Positions 8,800 through 63,671 of a DNA stretch of 64,000 bases are shown here, one piece after another (within the stretch, counting starts at the first letter, position 1; each line of letters begins with the position of its first letter). Source of the DNA: Dysgonomonas mossii DSM 22836 (GTDB lineage: Bacteria; Bacteroidota; Bacteroidia; Bacteroidales; Dysgonomonadaceae); the NCBI RefSeq assembly GCF_000213575.1, contig NZ_GL892010.1, positions 84,624-148,623 of the forward strand. The letters are read 5' to 3'. The position numbers were made by a program, and so were the translations under genes. The notes under the pieces are model-generated. The model was not told the origin of the DNA. It saw only the letters and a list, made by a program, of their open reading frames with translations, and searched no databases.

Positions 8800-11700
8800 A
8801 TGTTAGATTTTAGAGGTTATAAGAAATCCCAACACAAAGTCAATAATAAACCTTTTTACGGTGAATTGTTTAATACAGAACAGTTGGCAGAGTATTCGAA
8901 AGCGCTTGGAGAGGATCATCAGGCAACAGGGAGTACACAGAGTAATTATCTGCGAGAGCAATTAGATTATAATGATGTTATTCTGCACGATTTCAATAAT
9001 GAAATGTTAACAAGCAGCAATCGAAGTTATGTAACTCCCGCTATCGAATGGATGATTGACAATTTCTATTTAATTGAAGAGCATATTTTATTAGCCCGAC
9101 ATCACTACCCCAAGGAATATAACCAAGAACTTCCTTGCCTCTTGAAAGGTGAATATAAAGGGATACCCCGTATATATTCTTCAGTCATAGAACTCATCTC
9201 CCATACAGATTCTCAGATTGATATAGAATCACTTTCTGCTTTTTATAAGGCATACCAAATAAAATCTGCCCTCAAGATAGGAGAACTGTGGGCAATCCCT
9301 ATTATGTTACGGTTAGCGTTAATCGAAAATTTGCAACGTATTGCAACTCGATTACAGTTAAATACGAAACATCGCGATATAGCAAAAATGTGGGTCGACA
9401 AGCTGGAGGATATTGCTCTCAAAAAGCCTTCTAAATTGATTGAGATAGTAGCTGATATGGCACATTCCGATATCCCGACATCCGGTTCTTTTGTCTCAGA
9501 ATTCAGTCAACGGTTATCGTCTCAAAATTCGGCATTACAAATAGCCCGCAATTGGCTCGAACAAAAACTGGCAGAAGATGGACTTTTCATAGACGAGCTG
9601 ATTTATCAGGAAAATCAAAATCAGGCAGTAAATCAATTATCTGTCAGTCATATCATAAATAGTCTCCGGTTTATAAATACAACCGACTGGAAAATATTTG
9701 TTGAAAGACAAAGTATTGTAGAGCAAATTTTACTTAAAGATCCAGCTGGAATTTATGGATCTATGGACTTTAATACTCGTGATCATTATCGACATATTAT
9801 AGAATCATTAGTACAAAACAGTCTTAGATCAGAGATTGAAATCGCTCAATCTGCAATTACATTAACCCAATTGTATAAAGATACAGGCACACAACAAGCT
9901 CATGTGGGCTATTTTTTAATAGGTAATGGAAAATATTTACTCAAAAAAGAAATTGATGTAAAAAAGACTATCACTACAAGAATAAAAAATGTATTCAGAG
10001 GTGCTCCTTTAGCTATTTATGCCGGATCTATAACTATATTGTCCCTACTTGGATTTATCTTATTTGTTTCTGTTTTTCAATCCAAAGAAATACCAATAAC
10101 ACATTGGCATTTCTTGATCTTAGCATTCCTTTTCTTTATTTTCATTAGCCAATTTGTTGTATTCTTTGTCAATTGGATAATTACCCTTTTTGCAAAACCG
10201 GATATTCTAGCCCGGCTCGATTTTTCCAAATCGATACCGGTCGAATGCCGCACGATGGTGGTTATTCCAACTATCATTTCGAATGAAGAAAATGTTGATA
10301 GTCTAATTTCCCAATTGGAACTTCATTATCTGTCGAATAGAAATACCAATCTTCATTTTGGATTATTGACAGACTTTCCGGATGCTCCTAAAGAGAAAGA
10401 GGCCTCCGATGATCTTTTGCTCAATCTGGCACGTTTGGGAATTGAAAATCTCAATAAAAAGTACAGGATTGATAACGGCACTTTGTTCTATCTATTTCAC
10501 CGTCCTCGTCAACGGAATCCGAAAGAAAAAACATGGATGGGACATGAGCGAAAAAGGGGTAAGCTAATGGAATTTAATTCACTACTAAGAGGGAAAGAAA
10601 ACAATTGCTTCTCACACATTGAAGGAGACCGGTCTATATTGCCGAGCTTTAAGTATGTGATAACCTTAGATGCAGATACACAATTGTCTCCTGACACTGC
10701 TCATAAGCTGATAGGAACAATGGCTCACCCACTGAATCAGGCAGAACTTGATGTGAAACGAAATGTTGTAGTCGGGGGTTATGGTATTCTTCAACCCCGT
10801 GTTTCGTCCAATCTTGTAAGCAGTCAATGTTCCCCCTTCTCACGCTTGTTTACAGGCGACTCGGGTATTGATATTTACACACAAACTGTATCCGATGTCT
10901 ATCAGGATGTGTTTCACGAAGGTTCTTATATGGGCAAAGGTATTTATGATGTAGATGCTTTTGAAACCAGCTTAAATAACCGTTTTCCTGAGAACAAAAT
11001 ACTTAGCCACGATTTGTTGGAATCATCCTATATACGTTCCGGACTTGTTAGTGATATAGAAGTTTCCGAATCATTTCCTTCGGGTTATAATATAGATGCA
11101 AACCGTCATTTTCGCTGGATACGGGGCGACTGGCAAATCTTACAATGGGTATTGCCTTACGTTCCTAATTCGGGTAAAGGTTTTTCCCGAAATCCTATTT
11201 CGAGTTTAAGCAAATGGAAAATACTTGATAATTTACGCCGAAGTATAGTCTCGCCTGCAACATTGTTATTCTTGATCGGATTTGCAACATTGTTTCCTCA
11301 AAAACTTTGGTCAGGTCTATTGTTGATTCTTCTCATTACCGCTCTTCCTTTTGTATTGGAGAATATAACCAACTCTTTACGCAAAGCAAAGGACCAATCG
11401 TGGAAACTCCATTTATGGGAGGTCTTAGAAAAAAGTATGCATCAATTTAAACAGGTTTTATTTGCATTAGTTGTCCTCCCATACGAAGCCTATCTATGTG
11501 TAAAAGCAATTATTGTCACTCTTTGGCGACTGACTATATCTCATAAACATCTGATGGAATGGCAAACCTCTGCCGATGTAGAGAAAAAAGCAGTTAATAC
11601 ACTATCGGGATTCTATAACAGGATGTGGTTTTCGCCTGTAATGGCTATTCTGTGCGGAATATCGTTAGGTATATACAACCCGATCTTACTATACGTTTCT

Positions 11701-14700
11701 CCGTTTTTATTTATATGGATAATTGCGCCATATATCGCTTGGCGTGCAAGTTGTCCTATAATCCCCAAAATATCTAAAATAACAAATGAGCAATATCTTC
11801 TATTACACCGTATAGCCCGTAAAACCTGGCATTTTTTCGAAGTTTTCGTTAATGAAAAAGAGAATTGGTTAGCACCCGACAATTTTCAGGAGACACCTAA
11901 TCCTGCTATTGCTTCCCGGACTTCTCCTACCAATATAGGTCTGTCGTTATTAGCCAATTTATCCGCTTTTGATTTAGGATACCTGACAGCCGGAAAGTTT
12001 GTAGAGCGAACTAAGCTGACCTTTAATACTATGACAAAACTGCAAAAACACAGGGGGCATCTGTATAATTGGTATAATACTGAAACACTTGAGCCTATGT
12101 TCCCGCTGTATGTTTCGAGTGTCGATAGTGGTAATCTGGCAGGGCATTTGCTTACACTCACCCAAGGGCTAAGGGAATTAGAAAAAGACAATATTTACAA
12201 GCCTGTTATTTTCGAAGGGATGCTTGACACTGTACAGACAATGAGAAACATTGACTGCAAAAACAAGGCTTTGATTTTATTCGAAAAGGATTTGTCTAAG
12301 CCTTTGCCCGAAACATTAACTGCTGCGTTTGCCCTTTTAAAATCGGCAGAACAACAAATCGGACAGATCAATAATACTTTATCATCCGACGATGCCATAC
12401 TGAACTCATGGGGTGCGGTATTAAAGAAAAACTGCAAGGAATATGTTGATGAAATGCTTTTTCTTGCCCCTTGGCTTGCCATATCACTTCCTGTTCCTGT
12501 TGAAAGATTGGGAGAAAGTATTGCAGATGAACAGATGAATCATGTAATTTCTACACTGGAAGCTCTAGATTATGTGCTTACGTTAACACAAATAGCCAAT
12601 TTAGAAGCTACCGGTATTTGTTCACAAATTCAATCTGTATTAGACCAATTGTCCGGCAAAGAGAATCTATCTGCTGATAGAGAAATAAAATGCTTTACAC
12701 AATGGCAGGCTTACCTGAAAAACGCAATAAAGAATGCAAAACAAAGAATACAAATTCTCAATGTATTGGCACTGCAAAGTGATAGTTTTGCCAAAATGGA
12801 TTTTGCCTTTTTATATGATCCAATAAAGAAGTTATTCTCGATCGGATATAATGTCATCGAACAACGGATGGATCAAGGTTCGTACGATATGTTAGCTTCC
12901 GAAGCACGCTTGTGTAGTTATGTAGCCATAGCTCAAGGACAAATTCCGTTAGAGCATTGGTTTTCGCTAAGCAGATTACTGATTTTTTCGCAGGGCAAAC
13001 CTATATTGGTTTCATGGAGTGGCTCTATGTTCGAATATCTGATGCCACTGTTAGTTATGCCAAATTATGAGCAAACATTGCTCGATCAAACCTACAAAGG
13101 AGTCATCTATGAGCAAATAGAATACGGCAAGAAATTCGATATTCCTTGGGGAATTTCAGAATCAGGATTAAATCGCACAGATACTCAATTCAATTATCAA
13201 TATAAAGCTTTCGGAATACCAAGTTTGGGATTGAAGCGAGGTCTGTCAAAAGATCTGGTGATTGCTCCTTATGCCACTCTTCTGGCACTGATGGTTAATT
13301 CGCGGAAAGCATGCGAAAACTTGGAACGGCTTGCCGATAACGGCTTTGAAGGTATGTATGGTTATTATGAGGCTGTAGATTATACCCCATCTCATCTGCC
13401 GTTAAATGCAACAAGCATAGCTGTTCATTCCTATATGGCACATCATCAAGGTATGGGACTTGTCTCGATATCCAACATAATGAAAGGAAATAAGATGCAG
13501 GAGCGTTTTATGTCTTGCCCTATGATTAAGGCTTTTGAACCTCTGTTACAGGAGAAAAATCCTCATAATATAAAGATCGATGTTATATCGGATGATTCTA
13601 AGTTTGAGATTGAAGGAATTAATCCACTGTTATCCAATAGTGTATATTACACTCGAGTTTTTGACAATAAAAACATACCGCCTGAAGTTAACTTATTGTC
13701 TAACGGACGTTATCAGATAATGATAAATAACGGTGGCGGAGGCTATAGTCGATGGAATAATTTAGCAGTCACCCGTTGGCGTGAAGATGCAACGACAGGT
13801 TGTCATGGCTTGTTTGTTTACTTGTGCGATGTTGATACAGGAGAATACTGGTCGATCGGGAACCAACCGATACCAAGTTCTTCTGATGATTATAGCGTAA
13901 AATTCACTCAGGCTTATGCCGAATTTAAGCAACAACATTCTAAATTGGAAGTAAGAACAACCATATGTGTTTCACCCGAGGATGATATGGAACTGAGGCG
14001 AATAACCTTAACCAACCATACGAATAAGCCTCGGAGAGTAGAATTGACTACATACAGCGAAGTGGTTATATCATCGCAAGATGCTGATGAAGCGCACCCG
14101 GCGTTCAATAACTTGTTTGTACAAACCGAATTTAATGCAGCAGCCTCGTCTATATTATGTACCCGGCGTCCTCGTTCGCAGGAGGAAACCCCACCATATT
14201 TGCTGCATTTGTTGTTATCCGGGCAAGATCAGGAAAATGACGTTTCATGCGAAACAGACAGGGCTTCTTTTATTGGTCGTGGACATTCATTGGCAAAGCC
14301 TTTGGCAATGAGGCAATCCGGAACCTTATCAAACAGCGAGGGTTCTGTTCTTGACCCCTGTATTGCATTGCGACGGTCGATCATTATTCCAGCCCGAAAG
14401 AGTGTAAAAGTATATGTGCTACTTGGCATGTCCGACACGCATCTGGGGGCATTGTCCCTATCGGATAAATACCAGAACATCCGTATGACCGATCGTGCTT
14501 TCGAATTGGCATGGACTCACAGTCAGGTGGTTCTTTATCAACTTAATATTACCGAGACCGAAGCTCAGGTTTTTGCTAAAATGGCAGGAGCTTTGGTTTA
14601 TGCTAACCCTTTGTTCAGGACAGATCCGAATATCCTAAAAAACAACAGACGCGGACAAAACGGATTGTGGAGTTATGGTATTTCTGGTGATATTCCGTTA

Positions 14701-17505
14701 GTGTTATTGCGAATAAAGGATATAACAAATATAGAGCTGGTACGTCAATTGGTTTTGGCACATGCTTACTGGCGAATGAAGGGGTTAATAGTTGATCTTG
14801 TTATATTGAATGAAGACACATCGGTGTATCGCCAATCATTGTATGATGAGATAATAAACCTGATACATAGTGGCGTAGATGCTACGTTTTTAGAAAAGCA
14901 AGGTGGCATTTATGTTCGACGGATAGAGCATATGCCACATGAAGATATATTGCTTCTTCAGTCCGTTGCCCGAATTGTAATAGATGATGAGCAAGGGACA
15001 TTATTCGACCAAATGGAAGGTAAGTTAACTACAGATGTTCAGACTTCGATATTAAAACCAACACGTACTGTAAACACAACAGTAGAAACTGAATTAGCTC
15101 AGCGTAATTTAATTTTCTCTAATGGTTTTGGAGGATTTACGCCCGATGGGCAGGAGTATGTTATTACATTAAAACCGGGAGAATCGACACCCGCTCCTTG
15201 GTGTAATGTATTGGCAAATGAACATTTTGGAACGGTGGTATCTGAAAGCGGTAGCGCTTATACCTGGGGCGAAAATGCACATGAGTTCCGTATTACACCT
15301 TGGCATAACGATACAATTCTGGACTCATCGGGTGAAGCCTTTTATATTCGCGACGAAGAAACCGGACAGTATTGGTCTCCAACACCATATCCCGCAAGAG
15401 GAAATACCCCTTATGTTATTCGACATGGTTTTGGCTATACTGTCTTTGAGCATACTGAAAATGGAATAAAATCAGAACTGTGGATGTATGTGGCTTTGGA
15501 CACATCTATAAAATTCACAATCTTAAAAATAAAGAATATCTCCAATCGTCCGCGGAACTTATCTGTTACCGGCTATTATGAATGGGCGTTGGCAGAGAAA
15601 AAATCCAAAAGTCTTTTACATACTCAGACGGAGGTCGATATAGAAACAGGGGTGCTTTTTGCTCATAATTTCTATAACTCAGATTTCGCAGGAAAGATTG
15701 CTTTTATAGATGTCAATGAGACCCGAACGGTGACAGGCGATCGAAAAGAATTTATTGGGCAAAATGGAAGTTTATCTGATCCTGAAGCGATGAAGCATAC
15801 TCGTCTATCAGGAAAAACAGGAGCAGGCATAGATGCTTGTGGAGCCGTTCAAATTGTTTTTGATTTAGCAGAAGGGAAAACTAAAGAAACTCGTTTCAAA
15901 TTAGGTTTTGCTCAGAATAAAGAGGAGATGAAACAATTAGTCCGTCGTTATCGACAAATCGGATCTTCACAACAAACATTGGATAATGTTCGTAATTATT
16001 GGAATCAAACACTTGGTGGAATCAAAGTAGATACTCCTGATTCTTCGATCAATGTAATGGCTAACGGTTGGTTGTTGTATCAAACATTGAGTAGCCGTAT
16101 TTGGGCACGTTCGGGATTCTACCAATCAGGCGGAGCATATGGTTTCCGCGATCAATTACAGGATGTAATGGCTCTGGTTCATGTTGAACCCGATATAACC
16201 CGAAGACAAATACTTCGTGCAGCCGCACATCAGTTTACGGAAGGTGATGTGCAACATTGGTGGCATCCACCAATGAACAGAGGGGTTCGAACGCATTTTT
16301 CGGACGATTATTTGTGGTTGCCTTATGTTGTATGTCAATATATTTCGAGTGTTGGGGATAATGACATTTTAGGTGAGATTGTATCGTTTATCGAAGGTCG
16401 AGAGCTACGGGCAGACGAAGAATCATATTACGATCAGCCCAATCATTCAGCCGAATCGGCATCCCTTTACGAGCATTGTGTGAGGAGTATTAAGTACGGT
16501 CTTAAATTCGGCGTACATGGTTTACCTCTCATGGGATGCGGTGATTGGAACGATGGTATGAATCTGGTAGGAAAAGAAGGAAAAGGTGAAAGCGTTTGGC
16601 TCGGTTTCTTTTTGTACGATGTATTAGTCAAGTTTTCGGATGTGGCAAGGCTTCGCAATGATGAACCTTTTGCTCAGTACTGTGTAGATCAAGCAAAAGA
16701 ATTGCAAAAAAACATCAGGTTACATGCTTGGGATGGCAAATGGTATCGTCGAGCCTTTTTTGATGACGGTAGTCCTCTCGGTTCTGTCTTGAATGAAGAA
16801 TGCCAGATTGACTCTATTGCTCAAAGTTGGTCGGTAATTAGTGGTGCAGGAGATAAGGAGCGTTCGGTAATGGCTATGAATGAAGTTGATATGCAGTTAG
16901 TTGAAAGAGAAGCCAAACTCATCCGATTGTTTACTCCTTCATTTGACAAATCATCTCTAAGTCCGGGTTATATAAAAGGATATATTCCGGGAGTCCGTGA
17001 AAACGGAGGGCAATATACTCACGCAGCTATCTGGACAGCGTTGGCTTTTGCTATGATGGGAGAAACGGATAAAGCATGGGAACTTTTCGATTTACTGAAT
17101 CCTATACAACATGGCGCTACTGCAGAAGATATTGCCATTTATAAAGTTGAGCCTTATGTGGTAGCTGCCGATGTGTACACAAACCCTCAGCATCTCGGAC
17201 GAGGAGGCTGGACGTGGTACACCGGTTCAGCATCATGGATGTATCGTTTGTTGATAGAAATATTGTTAGGCATCAATCGTGTGGGAGATAAACTACTTCT
17301 AACTCCCCATTTGAAGAAAGAATGGAATAATTACAAAGTACATTATCGTTTTCAAGAGACTGTTTATCATATTACGTTCAATCAAGTCGAAGATTCTATA
17401 GAACCCTATCTTATTTTAGATGGGCAGAAGCAGAATGATTTAAACACTCTACATATGAAGAATGATTGTACAGAACATTTTGTGGACATGTGGATTAGAA
17501 AGTAA
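8800..17505 (+). CDS. Cyclic beta-1,2-glucan synthase-like giant enzyme (GT84 + GH94)
   Basis: 2901 residues, the size of NdvB/Cgs proteins. Order: N-terminal cytoplasmic region (1-400), paired membrane helices (about 405-465), a GT84-type glycosyltransferase domain with DADTQLSP near 620 and the RWIRGDW acceptor motif near 770, more membrane helices (about 820-870 and 915-1010), a glycoamylase-like domain (about 1360-1560) and two GH94-type regions, the last holding GDWNDGMN (about 2581-2588) with the phosphorylase catalytic Asp. In Brucella and Rhizobium this enzyme elongates beta-1,2-glucan from UDP-glucose on itself and the GH94 part trims chain length before cyclisation. The product here, periplasmic osmoregulated glucan or similar, is inferred. 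It is monocistronic, bounded by an operator cluster and a terminator. No exporter gene sits beside it. Confidence 0.88.
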   Translation: MLDFRGYKKSQHKVNNKPFYGELFNTEQLAEYSKALGEDHQATGSTQSNYLREQLDYNDVILHDFNNEMLTSSNRSYVTPAIEWMIDNFYLIEEHILLARHHYPKEYNQELPCLLKGEYKGIPRIYSSVIELISHTDSQIDIESLSAFYKAYQIKSALKIGELWAIPIMLRLALIENLQRIATRLQLNTKHRDIAKMWVDKLEDIALKKPSKLIEIVADMAHSDIPTSGSFVSEFSQRLSSQNSALQIARNWLEQKLAEDGLFIDELIYQENQNQAVNQLSVSHIINSLRFINTTDWKIFVERQSIVEQILLKDPAGIYGSMDFNTRDHYRHIIESLVQNSLRSEIEIAQSAITLTQLYKDTGTQQAHVGYFLIGNGKYLLKKEIDVKKTITTRIKNVFRGAPLAIYAGSITILSLLGFILFVSVFQSKEIPITHWHFLILAFLFFIFISQFVVFFVNWIITLFAKPDILARLDFSKSIPVECRTMVVIPTIISNEENVDSLISQLELHYLSNRNTNLHFGLLTDFPDAPKEKEASDDLLLNLARLGIENLNKKYRIDNGTLFYLFHRPRQRNPKEKTWMGHERKRGKLMEFNSLLRGKENNCFSHIEGDRSILPSFKYVITLDADTQLSPDTAHKLIGTMAHPLNQAELDVKRNVVVGGYGILQPRVSSNLVSSQCSPFSRLFTGDSGIDIYTQTVSDVYQDVFHEGSYMGKGIYDVDAFETSLNNRFPENKILSHDLLESSYIRSGLVSDIEVSESFPSGYNIDANRHFRWIRGDWQILQWVLPYVPNSGKGFSRNPISSLSKWKILDNLRRSIVSPATLLFLIGFATLFPQKLWSGLLLILLITALPFVLENITNSLRKAKDQSWKLHLWEVLEKSMHQFKQVLFALVVLPYEAYLCVKAIIVTLWRLTISHKHLMEWQTSADVEKKAVNTLSGFYNRMWFSPVMAILCGISLGIYNPILLYVSPFLFIWIIAPYIAWRASCPIIPKISKITNEQYLLLHRIARKTWHFFEVFVNEKENWLAPDNFQETPNPAIASRTSPTNIGLSLLANLSAFDLGYLTAGKFVERTKLTFNTMTKLQKHRGHLYNWYNTETLEPMFPLYVSSVDSGNLAGHLLTLTQGLRELEKDNIYKPVIFEGMLDTVQTMRNIDCKNKALILFEKDLSKPLPETLTAAFALLKSAEQQIGQINNTLSSDDAILNSWGAVLKKNCKEYVDEMLFLAPWLAISLPVPVERLGESIADEQMNHVISTLEALDYVLTLTQIANLEATGICSQIQSVLDQLSGKENLSADREIKCFTQWQAYLKNAIKNAKQRIQILNVLALQSDSFAKMDFAFLYDPIKKLFSIGYNVIEQRMDQGSYDMLASEARLCSYVAIAQGQIPLEHWFSLSRLLIFSQGKPILVSWSGSMFEYLMPLLVMPNYEQTLLDQTYKGVIYEQIEYGKKFDIPWGISESGLNRTDTQFNYQYKAFGIPSLGLKRGLSKDLVIAPYATLLALMVNSRKACENLERLADNGFEGMYGYYEAVDYTPSHLPLNATSIAVHSYMAHHQGMGLVSISNIMKGNKMQERFMSCPMIKAFEPLLQEKNPHNIKIDVISDDSKFEIEGINPLLSNSVYYTRVFDNKNIPPEVNLLSNGRYQIMINNGGGGYSRWNNLAVTRWREDATTGCHGLFVYLCDVDTGEYWSIGNQPIPSSSDDYSVKFTQAYAEFKQQHSKLEVRTTICVSPEDDMELRRITLTNHTNKPRRVELTTYSEVVISSQDADEAHPAFNNLFVQTEFNAAASSILCTRRPRSQEETPPYLLHLLLSGQDQENDVSCETDRASFIGRGHSLAKPLAMRQSGTLSNSEGSVLDPCIALRRSIIIPARKSVKVYVLLGMSDTHLGALSLSDKYQNIRMTDRAFELAWTHSQVVLYQLNITETEAQVFAKMAGALVYANPLFRTDPNILKNNRRGQNGLWSYGISGDIPLVLLRIKDITNIELVRQLVLAHAYWRMKGLIVDLVILNEDTSVYRQSLYDEIINLIHSGVDATFLEKQGGIYVRRIEHMPHEDILLLQSVARIVIDDEQGTLFDQMEGKLTTDVQTSILKPTRTVNTTVETELAQRNLIFSNGFGGFTPDGQEYVITLKPGESTPAPWCNVLANEHFGTVVSESGSAYTWGENAHEFRITPWHNDTILDSSGEAFYIRDEETGQYWSPTPYPARGNTPYVIRHGFGYTVFEHTENGIKSELWMYVALDTSIKFTILKIKNISNRPRNLSVTGYYEWALAEKKSKSLLHTQTEVDIETGVLFAHNFYNSDFAGKIAFIDVNETRTVTGDRKEFIGQNGSLSDPEAMKHTRLSGKTGAGIDACGAVQIVFDLAEGKTKETRFKLGFAQNKEEMKQLVRRYRQIGSSQQTLDNVRNYWNQTLGGIKVDTPDSSINVMANGWLLYQTLSSRIWARSGFYQSGGAYGFRDQLQDVMALVHVEPDITRRQILRAAAHQFTEGDVQHWWHPPMNRGVRTHFSDDYLWLPYVVCQYISSVGDNDILGEIVSFIEGRELRADEESYYDQPNHSAESASLYEHCVRSIKYGLKFGVHGLPLMGCGDWNDGMNLVGKEGKGESVWLGFFLYDVLVKFSDVARLRNDEPFAQYCVDQAKELQKNIRLHAWDGKWYRRAFFDDGSPLGSVLNEECQIDSIAQSWSVISGAGDKERSVMAMNEVDMQLVEREAKLIRLFTPSFDKSSLSPGYIKGYIPGVRENGGQYTHAAIWTALAFAMMGETDKAWELFDLLNPIQHGATAEDIAIYKVEPYVVAADVYTNPQHLGRGGWTWYTGSASWMYRLLIEILLGINRVGDKLLLTPHLKKEWNNYKVHYRFQETVYHITFNQVEDSIEPYLILDGQKQNDLNTLHMKNDCTEHFVDMWIRK

Positions 17506-30368: not shown

Positions 30369-30746
30369 ATGAGTTCAAACGAAAATTACGGAGAAAATAT
30401 ACCAGATCAGGCTCTAATGATATCAGTTATTAGCGAGCATTCTGTTATTCATGGATCTATTGATAACGCAAAGGCTATTCGTATAGAAGGAATGATAATA
30501 GGAGATATACGGCAAGCGGATACTGTTCTCGTAGGAGAGACAGGGAGAATACAGGGAAATGTTACTACAAAAAAACTTATTGTTTTTGGTCATATTGAGG
30601 GTGATATTCTAGCATCTGAATCTGTGTCTATAAGATCTTCAGGCCAGATAACAGGCAAACTTATGACCCATAGCTTGAATCTGGATCATGGCGCTATATA
30701 TGATGGCGAAATAATAATGGGTCCATCCTCTCCTGAAAATATATAA
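30369..30746 (+). CDS. Bactofilin (first copy)
   Basis: 125 residues from the ATG giving MSSNENYGENIPD; an in-frame start 36 bp upstream (MHLYMILLKQLT) is unlikely because it adds an untypical leader. The core (about 20-115) consists of short beta repeats, VISEHSVIHGSIDNAKAIRIEGMIIGDIRQADTVLVGETGRIQGNVTTKKLIVFGHIEGDI in part, which is the right-handed beta-helix of the bactofilin family. Bactofilins polymerise without nucleotide into filaments that attach to membranes and scaffold cell-wall or appendage proteins. It is the first gene of a compact operon with an actin-like ATPase and a second bactofilin. No transmembrane segment is present, so it is cytoplasmic. Confidence 0.92.
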   Translation: MSSNENYGENIPDQALMISVISEHSVIHGSIDNAKAIRIEGMIIGDIRQADTVLVGETGRIQGNVTTKKLIVFGHIEGDILASESVSIRSSGQITGKLMTHSLNLDHGAIYDGEIIMGPSSPENI

Positions 30747-30805
30747 TAGTATATAATTCTAGTATTGTAAATTTTTAATTGTTAAACACTTTTATAAAAA
30801 AAACT

Positions 30806-31822
30806 ATGTACGAAATCCAATCCTTTCCGAGTTTAGTTGAAATCAATAACACTGTCTTATCCCAAACCTCCAAAGATCTACTCCATGGTTTGAAGGTTCT
30901 GCATAATGACAAATGGTATATTTGCGGAGATTTAGCCTTGAGTGAAGGGCAGCTACCTCATAAACTGATAAATTCTTCCCCTGATGATACTGATTTTCAA
31001 CTTCTTGCGAAAGCGTCAATCTTATTAGTTCAAGATCGAGTAGAACAGCCGATAATAATTACGACTGGCTTTCCTTATTCAACTTACTATATCTATAAAG
31101 ATAAAGCGATTGAATTCTTTAAAAGAACCCATTTACTAGATTATGATGCATCTACTCATAATGCGGGGAATAAGAAAAAAGTTGTACTGGATGTACAGAA
31201 GGTCGAAGTTATTCCAGAGATTGTAGGATGTACAATCGCAATACGTAAAGGAGAGCCTAAAGCTTCAGGTAGTTTCTTTGTTTTTAGTTGTGGTTTTGGA
31301 ACATTCGAGTCTATTTTAAGTACAGATTCGGGGATCATAGAACAGACGATGGTAAGTACACATGGAATTCGTTATGCTGTAAATCTGATGATAAACGAAT
31401 TAAGGAGTAAGTATTATCTGGAACTGAGAAATGTACACCAGCTTGACGATGCCTTCCAACGTGGATACATTTTTCTAAATCGTCAGAATATAGATTTAAG
31501 AGAAATTCGTAAAAATGTGATTCAGACGTACTATCAAGAAGTCGTCTCTCCTAATCTCCGTAATATTATTAATGATTCCAATCTTGTGAAAACGAATCGT
31601 ATCTACTTATGTGGCGGTGCTATGTATTATCAAGAGTTAGTCGACTGTTTTATCGCAGAGTTTGGGCATTTTACTGAAATAACTGTATTGGATAATCCAG
31701 AAACATTGGCAAGTAAAGGGTATGCTCTTAATTCATTACGAGCAAGTGGCAAACCCAAATCAGCAATTGGTATTGATATAGGGAATGCAACTACAATCGT
31801 GACGAATTTTGTAGGTGAATAG
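30806..31822 (+). CDS. Actin-like ATPase (ParM/Alp type), apparently circularly permuted
   Basis: 338 residues from ATG (MYEIQSFPSLVEIN); an upstream TTG would add nine residues. The opening FPSLVEI...YICGDLAL and TTGFPY match ParM/archaeal-actin domains from just after their first hairpin. Phosphate-2 appears as SCGFGTFES (161-169) and the adenosine motif as YLCGGAMYY (267-275). The phosphate-1 motif, normally at the N-terminus, is the last element: AIGIDIGNATTIVTNF with Asp324, fourteen residues before the end. Joining the C- to the N-terminus restores the usual order, so the fold seems permuted. It is expected to bind ATP and polymerise. The genes on either side are bactofilins (59 and 21 bp away). 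It is not obviously plasmid-related. Confidence 0.8.
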   Translation: MYEIQSFPSLVEINNTVLSQTSKDLLHGLKVLHNDKWYICGDLALSEGQLPHKLINSSPDDTDFQLLAKASILLVQDRVEQPIIITTGFPYSTYYIYKDKAIEFFKRTHLLDYDASTHNAGNKKKVVLDVQKVEVIPEIVGCTIAIRKGEPKASGSFFVFSCGFGTFESILSTDSGIIEQTMVSTHGIRYAVNLMINELRSKYYLELRNVHQLDDAFQRGYIFLNRQNIDLREIRKNVIQTYYQEVVSPNLRNIINDSNLVKTNRIYLCGGAMYYQELVDCFIAEFGHFTEITVLDNPETLASKGYALNSLRASGKPKSAIGIDIGNATTIVTNFVGE

Positions 31823-31843
31823 TATAAATACAGAGCATAAAAA

Positions 31844-32416
31844 ATGTTTCTAATCAAACGAAAGAAAGTCAAAATAATTAAAGAAGATGTTGCAGAAGTA
31901 GTTGTATTATATAAGGATATAATTGTTTTGGGTGCATTTCGTTTTACAGGAATGCAAACGGGGGACTTCTTTGTAAAGGGTACAGCAACGATAGATCTTT
32001 CTGCGAGCGTGGAAGGAGACGTAACTGCTATGGACTGTTGCATCAATGGTGTAGTTGAAGGAAATGTGCGTTGCGCAAATAATTTATGGCTAGGAAGCTC
32101 GGCCATTATCAAAGGTTCAATCATGGCCCAAAAAGCTGTTATGGAAACTGGATGCAAAGTTAATGGAGCTGTGTTATTAGCACCGAAAGTAGAAGTTTCA
32201 ACATTAGTTGCTAAAATAATAGAAGCTGAAAAGATTATATTAAAGAGGGATATATCCGAAATTCAGGAGATTTTTAGTTCAGAAGCAGACATCCCGTTAA
32301 AAAGTGCTTTTATTCCCAGCATTAATACTTTGACGAAAGAACAGGAAATTATAGATGTAAAAAAGCCTGAATCATCTCCTGTGCAATTCGTAGATAAGAA
32401 TGATGATTGGTGGTGA
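31844..32416 (+). CDS. Bactofilin (second copy) with C-terminal extension
   Basis: 190 residues. A basic N-terminus (MFLIKRKKVKIIKED) precedes the beta-helical bactofilin core (about 25-125: ATIDLSASVEGDVTAMDCCINGVVEGNVRCANNLWLGSSAIIKGSIMAQKAVMETGCKVNGAV in part), which has more Cys than usual. A C-terminal tail of about 60 residues (130-190), acidic and ending in DDWW, is not part of the core and could bind a partner such as the actin-like ATPase. It starts 21 bp after that gene, so the three are co-transcribed. The two bactofilins differ enough to make distinct or mixed filaments. Confidence 0.85.
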   Translation: MFLIKRKKVKIIKEDVAEVVVLYKDIIVLGAFRFTGMQTGDFFVKGTATIDLSASVEGDVTAMDCCINGVVEGNVRCANNLWLGSSAIIKGSIMAQKAVMETGCKVNGAVLLAPKVEVSTLVAKIIEAEKIILKRDISEIQEIFSSEADIPLKSAFIPSINTLTKEQEIIDVKKPESSPVQFVDKNDDWW

Positions 32417-58277: not shown

Positions 58278-61200
58278 CTATATTTTAATTCCTCTAGAAA
58301 TTTGTTCTTCTTTCTTATTAGTATCAGAACCTACTTTTCCGATCAATATACGATCCCTGTTTGCATCAATAATCTCCTTAATACTCATTGGTTTCCCTGA
58401 GCGAACATTATTTACAGAATCAACAGACTGTACAGGAGTAACTTTTTGAACTTCTTTCGGTTCATCTTTGGTTGTCAGAGTAAGCTGAATTTGTCGATCC
58501 AAAGCGACCAATTCTGTTTTCAATTCTTTTAATAGAGGTTCTTTTTTGAAAGAAGAATCAATAACTTCTTTTAGTATGGGTAGATCTTTAGATAGTTTTT
58601 CATTATCGGTGTGGTATTTCTCAATCAATTTAGGAATACGCTCCAAAGCATTCAGAAAATTCATAGCGGCTAGTTTCGGATCAGTAGCGATATGTCCGTT
58701 ATTGTAGTTGTACTTTATTCCACCCTCCCCTTCTATAAAAAATCGGTTATCTTTAAAGATCGAACCTTCTTTTTGACTGTCCTCTGTCTTTACAAGAAGT
58801 TTAAAATCATAGAGTGTACCTATGGTGAAATACTCGTTATTGGTGCGGGCATTATCCGATAAGTGATTTAACTTTTCTCCGATAATTTTCAGATCAGATG
58901 AATTTATCCCTTCCAATTTTACAGGATTCAGTTTATTCCCCTCATTATCTGTCTGAGCACGATTACTGAATGCATCCCAGTCTTTTGTCATGCGGTTTAT
59001 CATTTGGGTATTTCCTTCGATGGTTCGGGTACTATCCTCATATTTGAAAGTCGCTGAAGATTTACTCTTGACAAATGCTTTCTTCTCACTTTCCAAAGCA
59101 TTGATCTTTTTCTCCAGCTTGGCTTTCTCCAATAAATCGGTATTACCTGAAAGAATAGCCACATACTCCGAGAAATTCATGCCTGCACTTTCATCCATGC
59201 TGCCCTCATCAATAGTACGACTGCCCAGACTATTATTCTTTAGCTGATTGATAAATGTCTGTTTATTCTGTAACAGATTGAACTTATAGGAATCAAGGCT
59301 TTTCTCAACTGCATAGATAACCACATCGACTTTGTTATCTGCATATAGTTTAGCGATTTCATTTCCTTTACGAATAGCACGCCCGTCCCGTTGTTGCAAG
59401 TCAGATGGTCGCCACGGTGTATCCAAATGATGGATAGCTACAGCTCTTTGCTGAGCGTTTACTCCTGTTCCCAACATCGAAGTAGAACCAAACAATACTC
59501 GGATACGCCCTTCATTCATTCCTTCAATCAATGTTTTACGGGCATTATCTGTTTTAGCTTCCTGAATAAAGCGTATCTCATGTCCGGGAATACCATGATC
59601 CTCTACCAGCTTTCGCTTAATCTCTGAATACGGATTCCATTCATTGGGTTTATATGTGCCTAAATCAGAGAATACAAATTGTGTTCCTTTATTGGATTCA
59701 TATTTATTGTAATACTCTGCTATTTTAGCTGCACAATGAGATGCTTTGTTATCGACATGGTCACCATATGCCTGATTAATCATACGCATATCCAATGACA
59801 TCTTACGGGCATAGTCGGTCGCAATCAGCATCTTTGCTTTATCTTCTTTTTCAGTCAGTGGAACTCGGCCTAGTAATGTCGCATCTCCTGTTTTAGCAAA
59901 TTCCATTAGTTTTTGAATAAATATTTCCTGCTGCGGTGTTGGTGGGATATTGTACAGTATCTCATTCTTTTCGGGACGGTCTATGCCAATATCTTTTGCT
60001 GTCCGAAAATCAGTAATCTCTGCATAAAAGTTCGCCAGTTCAGGGACTTTAATAAAATAACGGAAACGTTCTTTCTGTACGATCTGGTTGGTAACAGAAA
60101 ATTCATAATCGGTTGTTTTTTTGGCATAGATTGCTGCCCATGCATCAAAAGAATTGATACCCTGATTTTCCAATTCTTTCGGACGAAGATATTTGAATAA
60201 CAGATATAATTCTGTCAGGGAGTTGGATATGGTCGTCCCCGAAAGGAATGTAGCTCCTAAGTCTTTACCTGTACGCTCCTGTATCGTACGAACGGCAAAG
60301 AGCATATTCAAGGCTCGTTGGCTTCCCTCAGGATTACCTAAGCCTGCAACACGATCATGTCGAGTGGTAAAAGTCAGGTTCTTAAATTGATGAGATTCGT
60401 CTACAAACAAATGGTCGATTCCCATCATTTTGAAATCTACCACATCATCCGTGCGGTTCTTTATCGTATCGGCAAGCACACTCAGCTTTACCTCCAGATT
60501 CTGTTTTCTTATTTCCAATCCCCGTAACATGCGTTTGGAAGCGGATTTACCTTCAATCTGTTCGATAACACGAAGATTCTCTTCGACCGAATCCAGTTCT
60601 GTTTGGAATATCTGTTGCTGCATTTCAGGAGATTGGGGTAGCTTTCCAAATTGATCGTGCGTCAGGATAACGGCATCCCAGTTGTTGTTCTTTATATCAT
60701 TGAAGATCTTTACCCGTTTACTTGGTGTAAAGTCTTCCTTTCCCGGATAGAGAATCTTTGCATTTGGATATGCTGTTCTAAAGGTATGAGCTATTTCGTG
60801 TACATTGGCTTTTAGCCCTAATATCATCGGTTTGTTAGCTAACCCTAATCGTTTCATTTCATAGGCTGCAATACACATAATAAGTGTCTTTCCTCCACCT
60901 ACTTCGTGATCAGCTATGCCTCCGCCTATGAGTTTTTGCATCCATATACAGTCCTTCTGACTCGGATATAAATCGACAATACCTAAAGCTTTCAGGTCAA
61001 GATCAGGGAATGTCTGGTGTGAACCATCGTATTCAGGACGGACATAACAGTTGAATTTTTTATTATATAGATCTGCTAACTTATTTTGAAATTCGGGAGA
61101 CTGGTTGTTGAGCCAGTCGGTAAAACCGTTTCGTATCTCGTCTATTTTGGAATTTGCTAATTGGATTGCTTCTGGGTCTGCGACTTTTATACTTTTGCGT

Positions 61201-63671
61201 TCTCCGTTCTCATCCAATACTTCAATTGTCTTGGTGATATTCGGAGTTGTGTTAAGCAGTGCATGCTTCATCAGATGGATGCCTGTGAAAAGCTGCTTTT
61301 CACTTTGTATAGCAAACTTTTCATTAATAATCAGGTTACTTCGTTCGGAATTGACAGTAAAATCATCACGAGAGGCATAATATTCAATATTTACATTGGT
61401 TTCAAAAAGTGTACTGGCATAATCCCGATAGGTTTGCATCGGTATCCAGCGTTCTCCGAAGTTAAAATCAAGTTCCGCATAGCGGATTGGTTGTGGAATA
61501 GATTCTTCTAATACTTTAAGGGCGGTTTGTGATGCCGGATCATTCGGGTGATTCGTGAGATAATTTTTGACTTGCTCTGCTTTTTCAATTACATTTCCTG
61601 AAATAAACTTATCCCGTATCTCAAAGTTTTGGATCATCGGATTGAAATAGATCTGCCCTTCCAGATCATTTAAAACCTCTTCCCGCTTTTTATTATCCAA
61701 TAGCGAGAGCATATAATCCAGATGAATCTCTCCATATTTGTTTAATGATGCAACTAAAGCTTCACGAGAGGTTTCTGTATGTTTTATCTCATCAGGATTA
61801 AAACTTACAGGTCTCTGAAATATATCCGCCTTTTGCAATCTTCCGTCTATCCTGCGTTCTAATGCAAGAATCGCTGTTCCGGAAGAATCCATCTTGATTA
61901 TATCCAGATTCTTCTTATCGTTCAGATTTCCATAGAGCCTGAAAAAAGAATCATAGGAGGTATTCAGGTCTTTTCGTAAATCAGGTTCTTCAGTCAGATT
62001 CTTGGCTTCATAGTCGTACAACTTATGATACGCATCCCGTAATTGGATATACCTGTCAACCTTTGATTGCTGTATTGTCGGCAGATCCAAGGGCTGAAAC
62101 ACAGCATCTGTCCTGTAACGATCTTTCAGATAGCCGATCTGCCCGTCATCTTTGACTAATGAGCCTTGCTTATGGTATTCTTCCAATATGCCGGAGAAGG
62201 GTCGAAGTTCCATCGGTGGTTTTGGTTGCTCTTCTCTGACAACTTGTTCGGGGCTGGGTTCAGGCTTTTGTCTCTCATTGGAGGAAAACAAACTTAACTG
62301 TACAGGTTTCTGATTGGGTTGAGGTGTGCGTTTTCTTTTGTTCGGTTTAATCTGTGTACGCTCGGCTTCTGTAAACCCAAACAAATCATATAAAGACATG
62401 GTTGGTTGTGATACATTCAGCTCAATAACTTTAACTTTAGCTTTTTCTTCTGCTACTTGAGACTTGTTATTTATTGCAGATGTATTCTGAACAGCCTTTT
62501 GATTTTGTGATGAATACTTATAGTATAAGTTCAGATCGAGATTCAGTTTAAAATCGGTATTTAACATCTGCTTTAAATCAGAAGAAATAGCTTCCATTCC
62601 TCCTTCATGTAAGAATACCTGTGCCGGTTTTCCATAAGGATCGGTATCTCTAAATCCTTTGGTATGGACTATTCGTTGTAGATTTTCAAAGCTGCTGTTG
62701 ATTGTTATACCCGATGAAAGCTCATAGGTTGTCAGGAACTTTTTCTCTTGACGGGTTAGTTCTTGCTTTAGTGTATTCTTTTGCAGAACGATTAAATCGC
62801 TACCGACTTCTGTTCCTGCATTTTCTACAAAGAGGTTATTCGGTAAACGGATAGCTGATACCAGATTGGTATTATTCATTAGCCATTGCCTTACGGCTTG
62901 ATTGTTTGGTGAGTTTAATACACCCTGAGAGGTAATAAATGCCATCAATCCTCCTTCACGCAATGTTTCAACTCCTTTCAGAAAGAAATAATTGTGAATG
63001 GCCCGAGTAGAATCCCTATGCAGTTTATCTGTTTTCATAAATTCTGCATCGAATACACTCATCTCTCCAAAAGGAATATTGGAAGTAACCACATCAAAAT
63101 GATTATTATATCGGCTCTCAATAGTTTCAAAGCCATCTACAATAACTTTATCATCAGGATTGATATGAGATAATATTTTACCAGTCAGAAGATCCTTTTC
63201 AAAATTAATGATATCAGCTTTGAGGTAGCGGAAAGAAAAAGCAGAGGAAAAACCACCCATGCCTGCTGATGGGTCCAACAGGGTATTTATCTGTACATCG
63301 TTATCACTGAATGTATCGGCTAGAGCCTGAACAACTAAAGGCGGAGTATAGAAAGCTGTCAGTACCGAGTTCTTTATACTATTGATATATTGCTTATACT
63401 CTATAGCAGAATCGGTATTATCCCTGATTACCCGATGCAGTTCGGCGACCATCGGAAATAACTCCAGTTCAGATTTTGCCCATGATGCTGTATCTGCCAG
63501 ACTATTGACAGGATTAAGTACACATTTGAGGCCTCCGAATCCGGTATATTCCATTAATATATCCTGCTCGATTTCGGTAGCTGGGCGTTGTTCTTTTTCA
63601 AGGGTAAAAACGACCTTAACTGCATCGATATTGGCTCTCAGATGAGCCTTTTTATTATAGCTCATGTTCAT
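58278..63671 (-). CDS. DNA methylase-SNF2 helicase fusion (anti-restriction-like)
   Basis: 1797 residues. An N-terminal N6-adenine methyltransferase domain has the SAM site DPSAGMGGF (133-141) and a catalytic motif NIPF (198-201, replacing NPPY). After a proline/glutamine-rich linker (about 420-490), a C-terminal SNF2-type helicase follows: VGGGKT (Lys928), [19 protein letters not shown] and [12 protein letters not shown] (motif VI). This layout is found in conjugative transposons and, as DarB, in phage P1, where it protects incoming DNA from restriction; the role here is inferred. The first ATG is used; MSYNKK, two codons later, is equally likely. It overlaps the DUF1896 gene by 17 bp. Confidence 0.87.

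Follow-up and report, generated by a model that had tools for sequence, protein, structure and literature searches.

Few protein folds have been studied as much as that of actin, in which the N-terminal position of the phosphate-1 (P1) strand is a constant feature. In actin folds the original N- and C-termini lie close together. ParM needs an Asp of the phosphate-2 (P2) segment for hydrolysis, and some members of the fold, such as FtsA and PilM, act beside filaments made by other proteins. For bactofilins (BacA, BacP, CcmA), the available part of PMC12448750 gives a membrane-targeting consensus, MFSKKKK, and describes the binding of the client PadC by the long tail of M. xanthus BacP, a precedent for docking through a tail. 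The pairing of bactofilins with M23 peptidases (BacA-LmdC modules) has also been published, and no actin is seen in the modules described in the available part of that paper (PMC10945521). Neither a circularly permuted bacterial actin nor an actin-bactofilin pair turned up in a literature search that lay largely outside the subscription journals, so that absence from the literature is unproven.

The locus described here lies in a 64-kb window (the whole stretch of DNA analysed) and consists of three same-strand genes, separated by gaps of 59 and then 21 bases, in which an actin-like protein stands between two bactofilins (Table 1). Both flanking proteins clear the Pfam cut-off for PF04519 Bactofilin (27.9 bits). 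The middle protein matches ALP_N over residues 4-141 with 44.3 bits (E 2.6e-11; cut-off 26.3), and the match enters the profile at position 18 of 148, the first 17 positions being missing from the N-terminus of the protein. The open reading frame starts with an ATG at 30806; an alternative in-frame TTG at 30779 adds 9 residues and no P1 motif. The segments are labelled P1 and P2 by their usual names. An earlier note, made from the DNA letters alone, had listed coordinates, residues and motif order for the cassette, and ORF translation and Pfam agree with it on every one. A promoter scan at the cassette gave nothing above noise (Bacteroidota-type patterns total 10 vs 5.2 expected, one of them inside the actin gene), and a terminator scan found none after it.

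Table 1. Features of the cassette (window coordinates; residue numbers refer to the actin)
Feature	Position	Strand	Remarks
Upstream bactofilin, 125 aa	30369..30746	+	PF04519 E 1.2e-22, 80.4 bits; core domain, no aromatic tail, ends ENI
Putative permuted ParM-type actin, 338 aa	30806..31822	+	Starts at strand 3 (FPSLVE), ends with P1 hairpin
Phosphate-2 (P2) segment SCGFGTFES, residues 161-169	31286..31312	+	Ser161 at usual Asp position
Adenosine-site segment YLCGGAMYY, residues 267-275	31604..31630	+	
Relocated phosphate-1 (P1) hairpin AIGIDIGNATTIVTNF, residues 320-335	31763..31810	+	Includes D324
Downstream bactofilin, 190 aa	31844..32416	+	PF04519 E 1.3e-14, 54.6 bits; N-terminal MFLIKRKK, ends DDWW

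Relatives of the actin were collected by profile search of drawn, overlapping genome samples of a single phylum, Bacteroidota. The profile matched in 3 of 61 relatives, 5 of 395 genomes of the class (own genome counted), 27 of 196 genomes of family f44 (one a weak match with in-frame stops), 3 of 17 genomes of family f79, and 24 of 395 genomes of the phylum (counting the own genome and one contig-edge fragment). Named carriers, with five loci, are Parapedobacter koreensis, three Sphingobacterium species and Dysgonomonas sp. Marseille-P4677. Of 65 matched segments, five were set aside (one contig-edge fragment, and four pieces that come from a single frameshifted gene retrieved twice), as were three exact duplicates, which leaves 57 distinct full-length homologues; the match G758:C1:3041167, the weak match with in-frame stops in G535 and the contig-edge fragment G931 were left out of this set. 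The 57 are drawn from several Bacteroidota classes and are 39-91% identical to the window actin. Every one starts at strand 3, with the pattern [FYIL]P/S S..E, and ends with GxDxGNxxT. None of the 57 varies at five residues of the C-terminal P1 hairpin (G322, D324, G326, N327 and T330), at S9 and E12 in the strand where the chain starts, or at E138, E168, G270 and G271. P1 is found at the N-terminus in none of the 57; relatives with this canonical arrangement are the plasmid ParM P0002 (Persephonella marina) and, within the phylum, L179.

If the chain order has been permuted, moving the C-terminal hairpin to the front should restore the canonical match, and this is basically what we see. With residues 318-338 of the window actin moved to the front, the ALP_N score rises from 44.3 to 54.3 bits and the profile span extends from 18-148 to 1-148, whereas rotating at residue 60 as a control yields 41.8 bits, split in two stretches. 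The phage partition protein model PHROG 691 behaves similarly: the native window actin (P0001) spans positions 44-319 with 69.9 bits and the rotated one 4-319 with 75.4 bits, and rotation also raises the score in two distant members (63.8 to 69.8 bits and 69.4 to 84.2 bits). When the 57-row alignment was compared by hhalign with the canonical plasmid ParM P0002 at 18 cut points, the top scores came from four cuts at 310-320 (83.6-84.7 vs 80.5 for the native order), and these were the only cuts that aligned residues 3-277. The gains in score are small because P1 has only ∼19 residues. Two other results involve unequal numbers of rows, and so permit no clean comparison: in the PDB profile search Dh-cParM1 had E 5.5e-5 with 28 native rows and E 4.2e-4 with 9 rotated rows, and a 9-row rotated hhalign alignment scored 72.4 vs 83.7 for 28 native rows, yet had full coverage. 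The PDB profile alignments to Dh-cParM1 begin after P1 in native and rotated forms alike.

The common order of the 57 homologues and the rotation tests together bear out the natural circular permutation that the earlier note had proposed; that note had also named homologues with an intact N-terminal P1 as the sign of a mis-joined or frameshifted copy, and there are none among the 57. On this evidence the middle protein almost certainly belongs to a conserved ParM-type actin family whose members are circularly permuted. As far as sequence comparison goes, the break in the chain is shown to fall after strand 2 and before strand 3 of the first subdomain, and a short linker connects the old C-terminus to the P1 hairpin; the permutation is, by the same token, old and fixed across the Bacteroidota classes sampled.

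Once rotated, the protein is related over its whole length to ParM/ALP actins (ALP_N PF17989, PHROG 691 and Dh-cParM1, PDB 8x1i), and P1, the P2 region, the connecting Glu and the GG adenosine motif are all recognisable. It departs from them in the C-terminal position of the P1 hairpin, in the replacement of the P2 Asp by Ser in 54 of 57 homologues, and in having a bactofilin gene, rather than a ParR-type adaptor gene, directly downstream (43 of 59 loci, window included). Some likeness to MreB and archaeal MreB-like actins exists as well. Among 28 family members searched with Pfam, MreB-like_C (PF21522) was matched with E <0.001 in 21 and MreB_Mbl (PF06723) in one; the MreB-like_C match is weaker than that of ALP_N, which was matched by 24 of the 28, and the permuted chain order is again a difference.

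AlphaFold2 gave a poor model of the window actin (pLDDT 41.4, pTM 0.41; 7-row alignment in which two rows are pieces of one gene), and for this reason we infer fold, polymerisation and binding rather than read them from the model. The P1 hairpin is presumably seated in the protein's own nucleotide site, and the glycines G270 and G271 of the adenosine motif are present in all 57 homologues. The position of the P2 Asp is occupied by Ser in 54, Gly in two and Asn in one; Asp is kept in the canonical relatives P0002 (aligned) and L179. The actin is thus probably slow or non-hydrolysing, and the nucleotide-driven filament of the earlier note is not supported. The family may bind nucleotide and hydrolyse it poorly. 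Weak or absent ATP hydrolysis is the outcome toward which we lean, and whether the permuted actin polymerises appears evenly balanced.

The link between the actin and a bactofilin, which was also claimed earlier, is conserved: 43 of 59 loci (L045 and L088 have identical DNA and count as one) carry a same-strand bactofilin ≤300 bp downstream of the actin. The other 16 comprise one locus with a Trp-ended bactofilin at 420 bp, one with a Phe-ended bactofilin at ∼1 kb, three with an untagged bactofilin at ∼1.2 kb after a TPR gene, three (family f79) in which the actin itself carries the Trp tail, and eight with neither. We consider it very probable that the actin and the downstream bactofilin are functionally paired. 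The upstream bactofilin has a different distribution, being seen only in the Dysgonomonas/Sphingobacteriaceae clade; the arrangement between two bactofilins is therefore not general, and the idea that two bactofilins flank every family member was rejected on the homologue loci. Two other gene orders were noted in passing. In L097, L098 and L100 the order is an M23-like gene, the actin, a TPR protein, an untagged bactofilin and small genes that by eye resemble an ATP synthase operon. In family f108 (L094:2308-6024 and L096:2055-5753) the actin is preceded by a giant pentapeptide-repeat protein of ∼1,240 aa, another beta-helix protein (assigned by Pfam on L094 only).

The downstream bactofilins share one further feature, a C-terminal tail tipped by an aromatic residue. 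Among 43 distinct proteins the C-terminal residue is Trp in 37, and Trp or Phe lies within the last two residues in all 43, the other six ending IF, WI, WI, WV, FF and LF. As controls we took PF04519 matches in 32 genomes, of which 36 do not adjoin an actin: a final Trp occurs in none of these 36, Phe and Tyr end one each, and Trp or Phe is in the last two residues of only one. Thus, non-adjacent bactofilins differ from those tied to the permuted actin, and 23 of the first 34 controls come from actin-bearing genomes. A Fisher p of 8e-16 for the Trp tail was computed on 0/34 controls and treats related sequences as independent, and we place no weight on it. In the four upstream cassette bactofilins that were inspected, the last residues are L, I, S and L. 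Except for the last residues, the tail sequences are highly divergent; the terminal WW of the window's downstream bactofilin is invariant in the six sequences aligned (6/6). The unusual tail that the earlier note had remarked on is therefore real and of more importance than that note had supposed, since its terminal Trp is what the actin-linked bactofilins share. This terminal Trp/Phe tail is a new finding here.

Structurally, the window's downstream protein resembles the known bactofilins, with a beta-helix model and a basic, hydrophobic N-terminus. AlphaFold2 models the core as beta-helix blocks with pLDDT 82-96; residues 119-135 form a helix, and the tail (136-187) has pLDDT <50. Foldseek places bactofilins at ranks 1, 3 and 4, with no match at E <0.001; the best solved match is the T. 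thermophilus bactofilin 6rib (E 2.9e-3). In the three f79 loci (L023:3850-5142, L024:2032-3387 and L025:6949-8250) it is the actin that is longer, by ∼95 residues, and its C-terminus reads KFLKTGMW or KFLISGTW (3/3). No bactofilin occurs in the flanks retrieved for these three loci, and the f79 genomes have one untagged bactofilin elsewhere.

In the reading that we prefer, and regard as moderately probable, the permuted actin hydrolyses ATP slowly or not at all and is tethered through the Trp tag to a bactofilin bound to the membrane. The P1 hairpin would fold back into its own nucleotide site to give an ordinary actin-fold nucleotide binder, with the new chain termini on the outer face. The downstream bactofilin would be anchored in the inner membrane through its basic, hydrophobic N-terminus, which is likely in that MFLIKRKK resembles the targeting consensus reported in part of PMC12448750, and would form a static filament. 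From this filament many flexible Trp-tipped tails would hold the actin, which, with Ser in place of the P2 Asp, would probably serve as a scaffold locked by nucleotide and not as a motor that treadmills. The single-stranded DNA-binding protein SSB, which works through its C-terminal tip, offers a parallel for such tails. We give about an even chance to direct binding of the actin by the Trp tail.

In Sphingobacterium and Parapedobacter the gene immediately upstream of the cassette encodes an M23 peptidase (by Pfam for L008 and L009, by similarity for the others), in the manner of BacA-LmdC bactofilin-M23 modules, and in L107-L110 M23 genes are near the actin. As M23 genes adjoin part of the family, the actin-bactofilin pair is likely to be a scaffold that marks or organises a place where the cell wall is remodelled. 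The cassette is unlike the BacA-LmdC modules (as described in part of PMC10945521) in including an actin, and the window's own cassette has no adjoining M23 gene.

Several other explanations share part of this evidence. The one most at odds with it is an artefact, in which an N-terminally truncated or mis-joined actin carries a GxDxGN motif by chance. There is a frameshift in the copy of a close relative, Dysgonomonas sp. Marseille-P4677 (L012), as this would predict; the order common to 57 of 57 homologues, the very low dN/dS and the rotation tests all speak against it, so that the homologues already refute this explanation and its probability is negligible. If the permutation is real, the C-terminal P1 hairpin might insert into a neighbouring molecule and build head-to-tail chains by strand exchange. 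The hairpin is suitably placed at the free chain end behind a short linker, but because the old termini lie close together in actin folds, a linker of about ten residues is enough in cis, and we think strand exchange quite improbable. Hardly better placed is a role in chromosomal DNA partition, with the bactofilin in place of a ParR adaptor. The best sequence models are indeed partition proteins (PHROG 691 and the plasmid ParM P0002), and some bactofilins act in chromosome organisation according to the available part of PMC12448750. However, phage and viral-contig sequences gave no match, the single weak plasmid match is a canonical ParM, at 43 of 59 loci the next gene downstream encodes a bactofilin and not a small DNA-binding protein, and M23 genes adjoin part of the family. 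Partition therefore seems unlikely.

Two alternatives are closer competitors, and we rate each as a serious possibility that falls somewhat short of an even chance. The permuted actin may act without polymerising: as a monomer or dimer it would dock on the bactofilin filament and serve there as a nucleotide switch or adaptor. This would suit the loss of the P2 Asp in 54 of 57 homologues and the much stronger conservation of the actin than of the bactofilins, as for a protein with many contacts; conservation over the whole surface fits a filament too, however, and the closest models (ALP_N and PHROG 691) are filament-forming partition actins. The other competitor concerns the target of the tail, which may be a third partner, such as the membrane or an envelope enzyme, so that a shared tag recruits the bactofilin or, in f79, the actin. 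Such a partner would explain, with no need for self-binding, why the tag is on the actin itself in all three f79 proteins, and the docking of the client PadC by the long BacP tail (PMC12448750, in part) is a comparable case. Against it, actin-bearing genomes also hold untagged bactofilins and the tag was seen only on the actin-linked one, which makes the actin the simplest receptor.

The preferred reading, with the actin held by the Trp tag on a membrane-bound bactofilin, suggests an undescribed two-part bacterial skeleton of actin and bactofilin. Its most far-reaching form, a phylum-wide two-polymer cytoskeleton in which the permuted actin co-assembles with membrane-bound bactofilin filaments through the Trp-tipped tail, is one that we put forward tentatively, at slightly less than an even chance. 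Permutation would, on this view, have given the actin a free chain end on its outer face, and in f79 that end would have gained the Trp tag. If the view is true, neither a natural permuted actin nor an actin paired with a bactofilin would have been known before. Retention of P1 at the opposite end across several classes would mean that chain order is not essential to the actin fold, and the family would be a natural test of actin folding and nucleotide coupling. The terminal Trp makes the actin-bactofilin link testable through the removal of a single residue.

The window's own genome contains three cassettes, whose actins are 100, 91 and 84% identical to the query. The two paralogous cassettes, G000:C5:143356-144369 (L013) and G000:C2:93535-94551 (L014), are complete and are old paralogues. 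Where dS could be computed for the actin (5 of 28 pairs, dS being beyond measure in the other 23), dN/dS is 0.005-0.08, and these very low values indicate that function has been kept. For the bactofilins dN/dS is 0.07-0.34 (10 of 10 pairs) and 0.14-0.36 (9 of 10 pairs), and identities to the window are 77-91% for the actin and 42-62% and 25-56% for the two bactofilins.

The cassette is patchy within the genus (3 of 25 genomes, some of them incomplete), and was found in none of 36 relatives outside it. The actin tree follows families, with 10 label changes against a minimum of 9, and the window clade unites Dysgonomonas with Sphingobacteriaceae with support 100/100; given the lack of carriers among the 36 relatives, transfer between groups and many losses are both possible. 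No close relative was found among viral contigs, phages or plasmids that would point to a phage or plasmid origin, the one weak plasmid match being itself a canonical ParM. The flanks differ between the paralogous cassettes, and the sister species G015 has no clear empty site, with matches only to cassettes and short stretches; a mobile element as carrier was rejected on these grounds. In the Dysgonomonas sp. Marseille-P4677 copy (L012:5992-7012) the last third is split in two frames, either by a real break or by an assembly error. Elsewhere in the 64-kb window there are two very long open reading frames, at 8800-17505 (2,901 aa) and 58278-63671 (1,797 aa).
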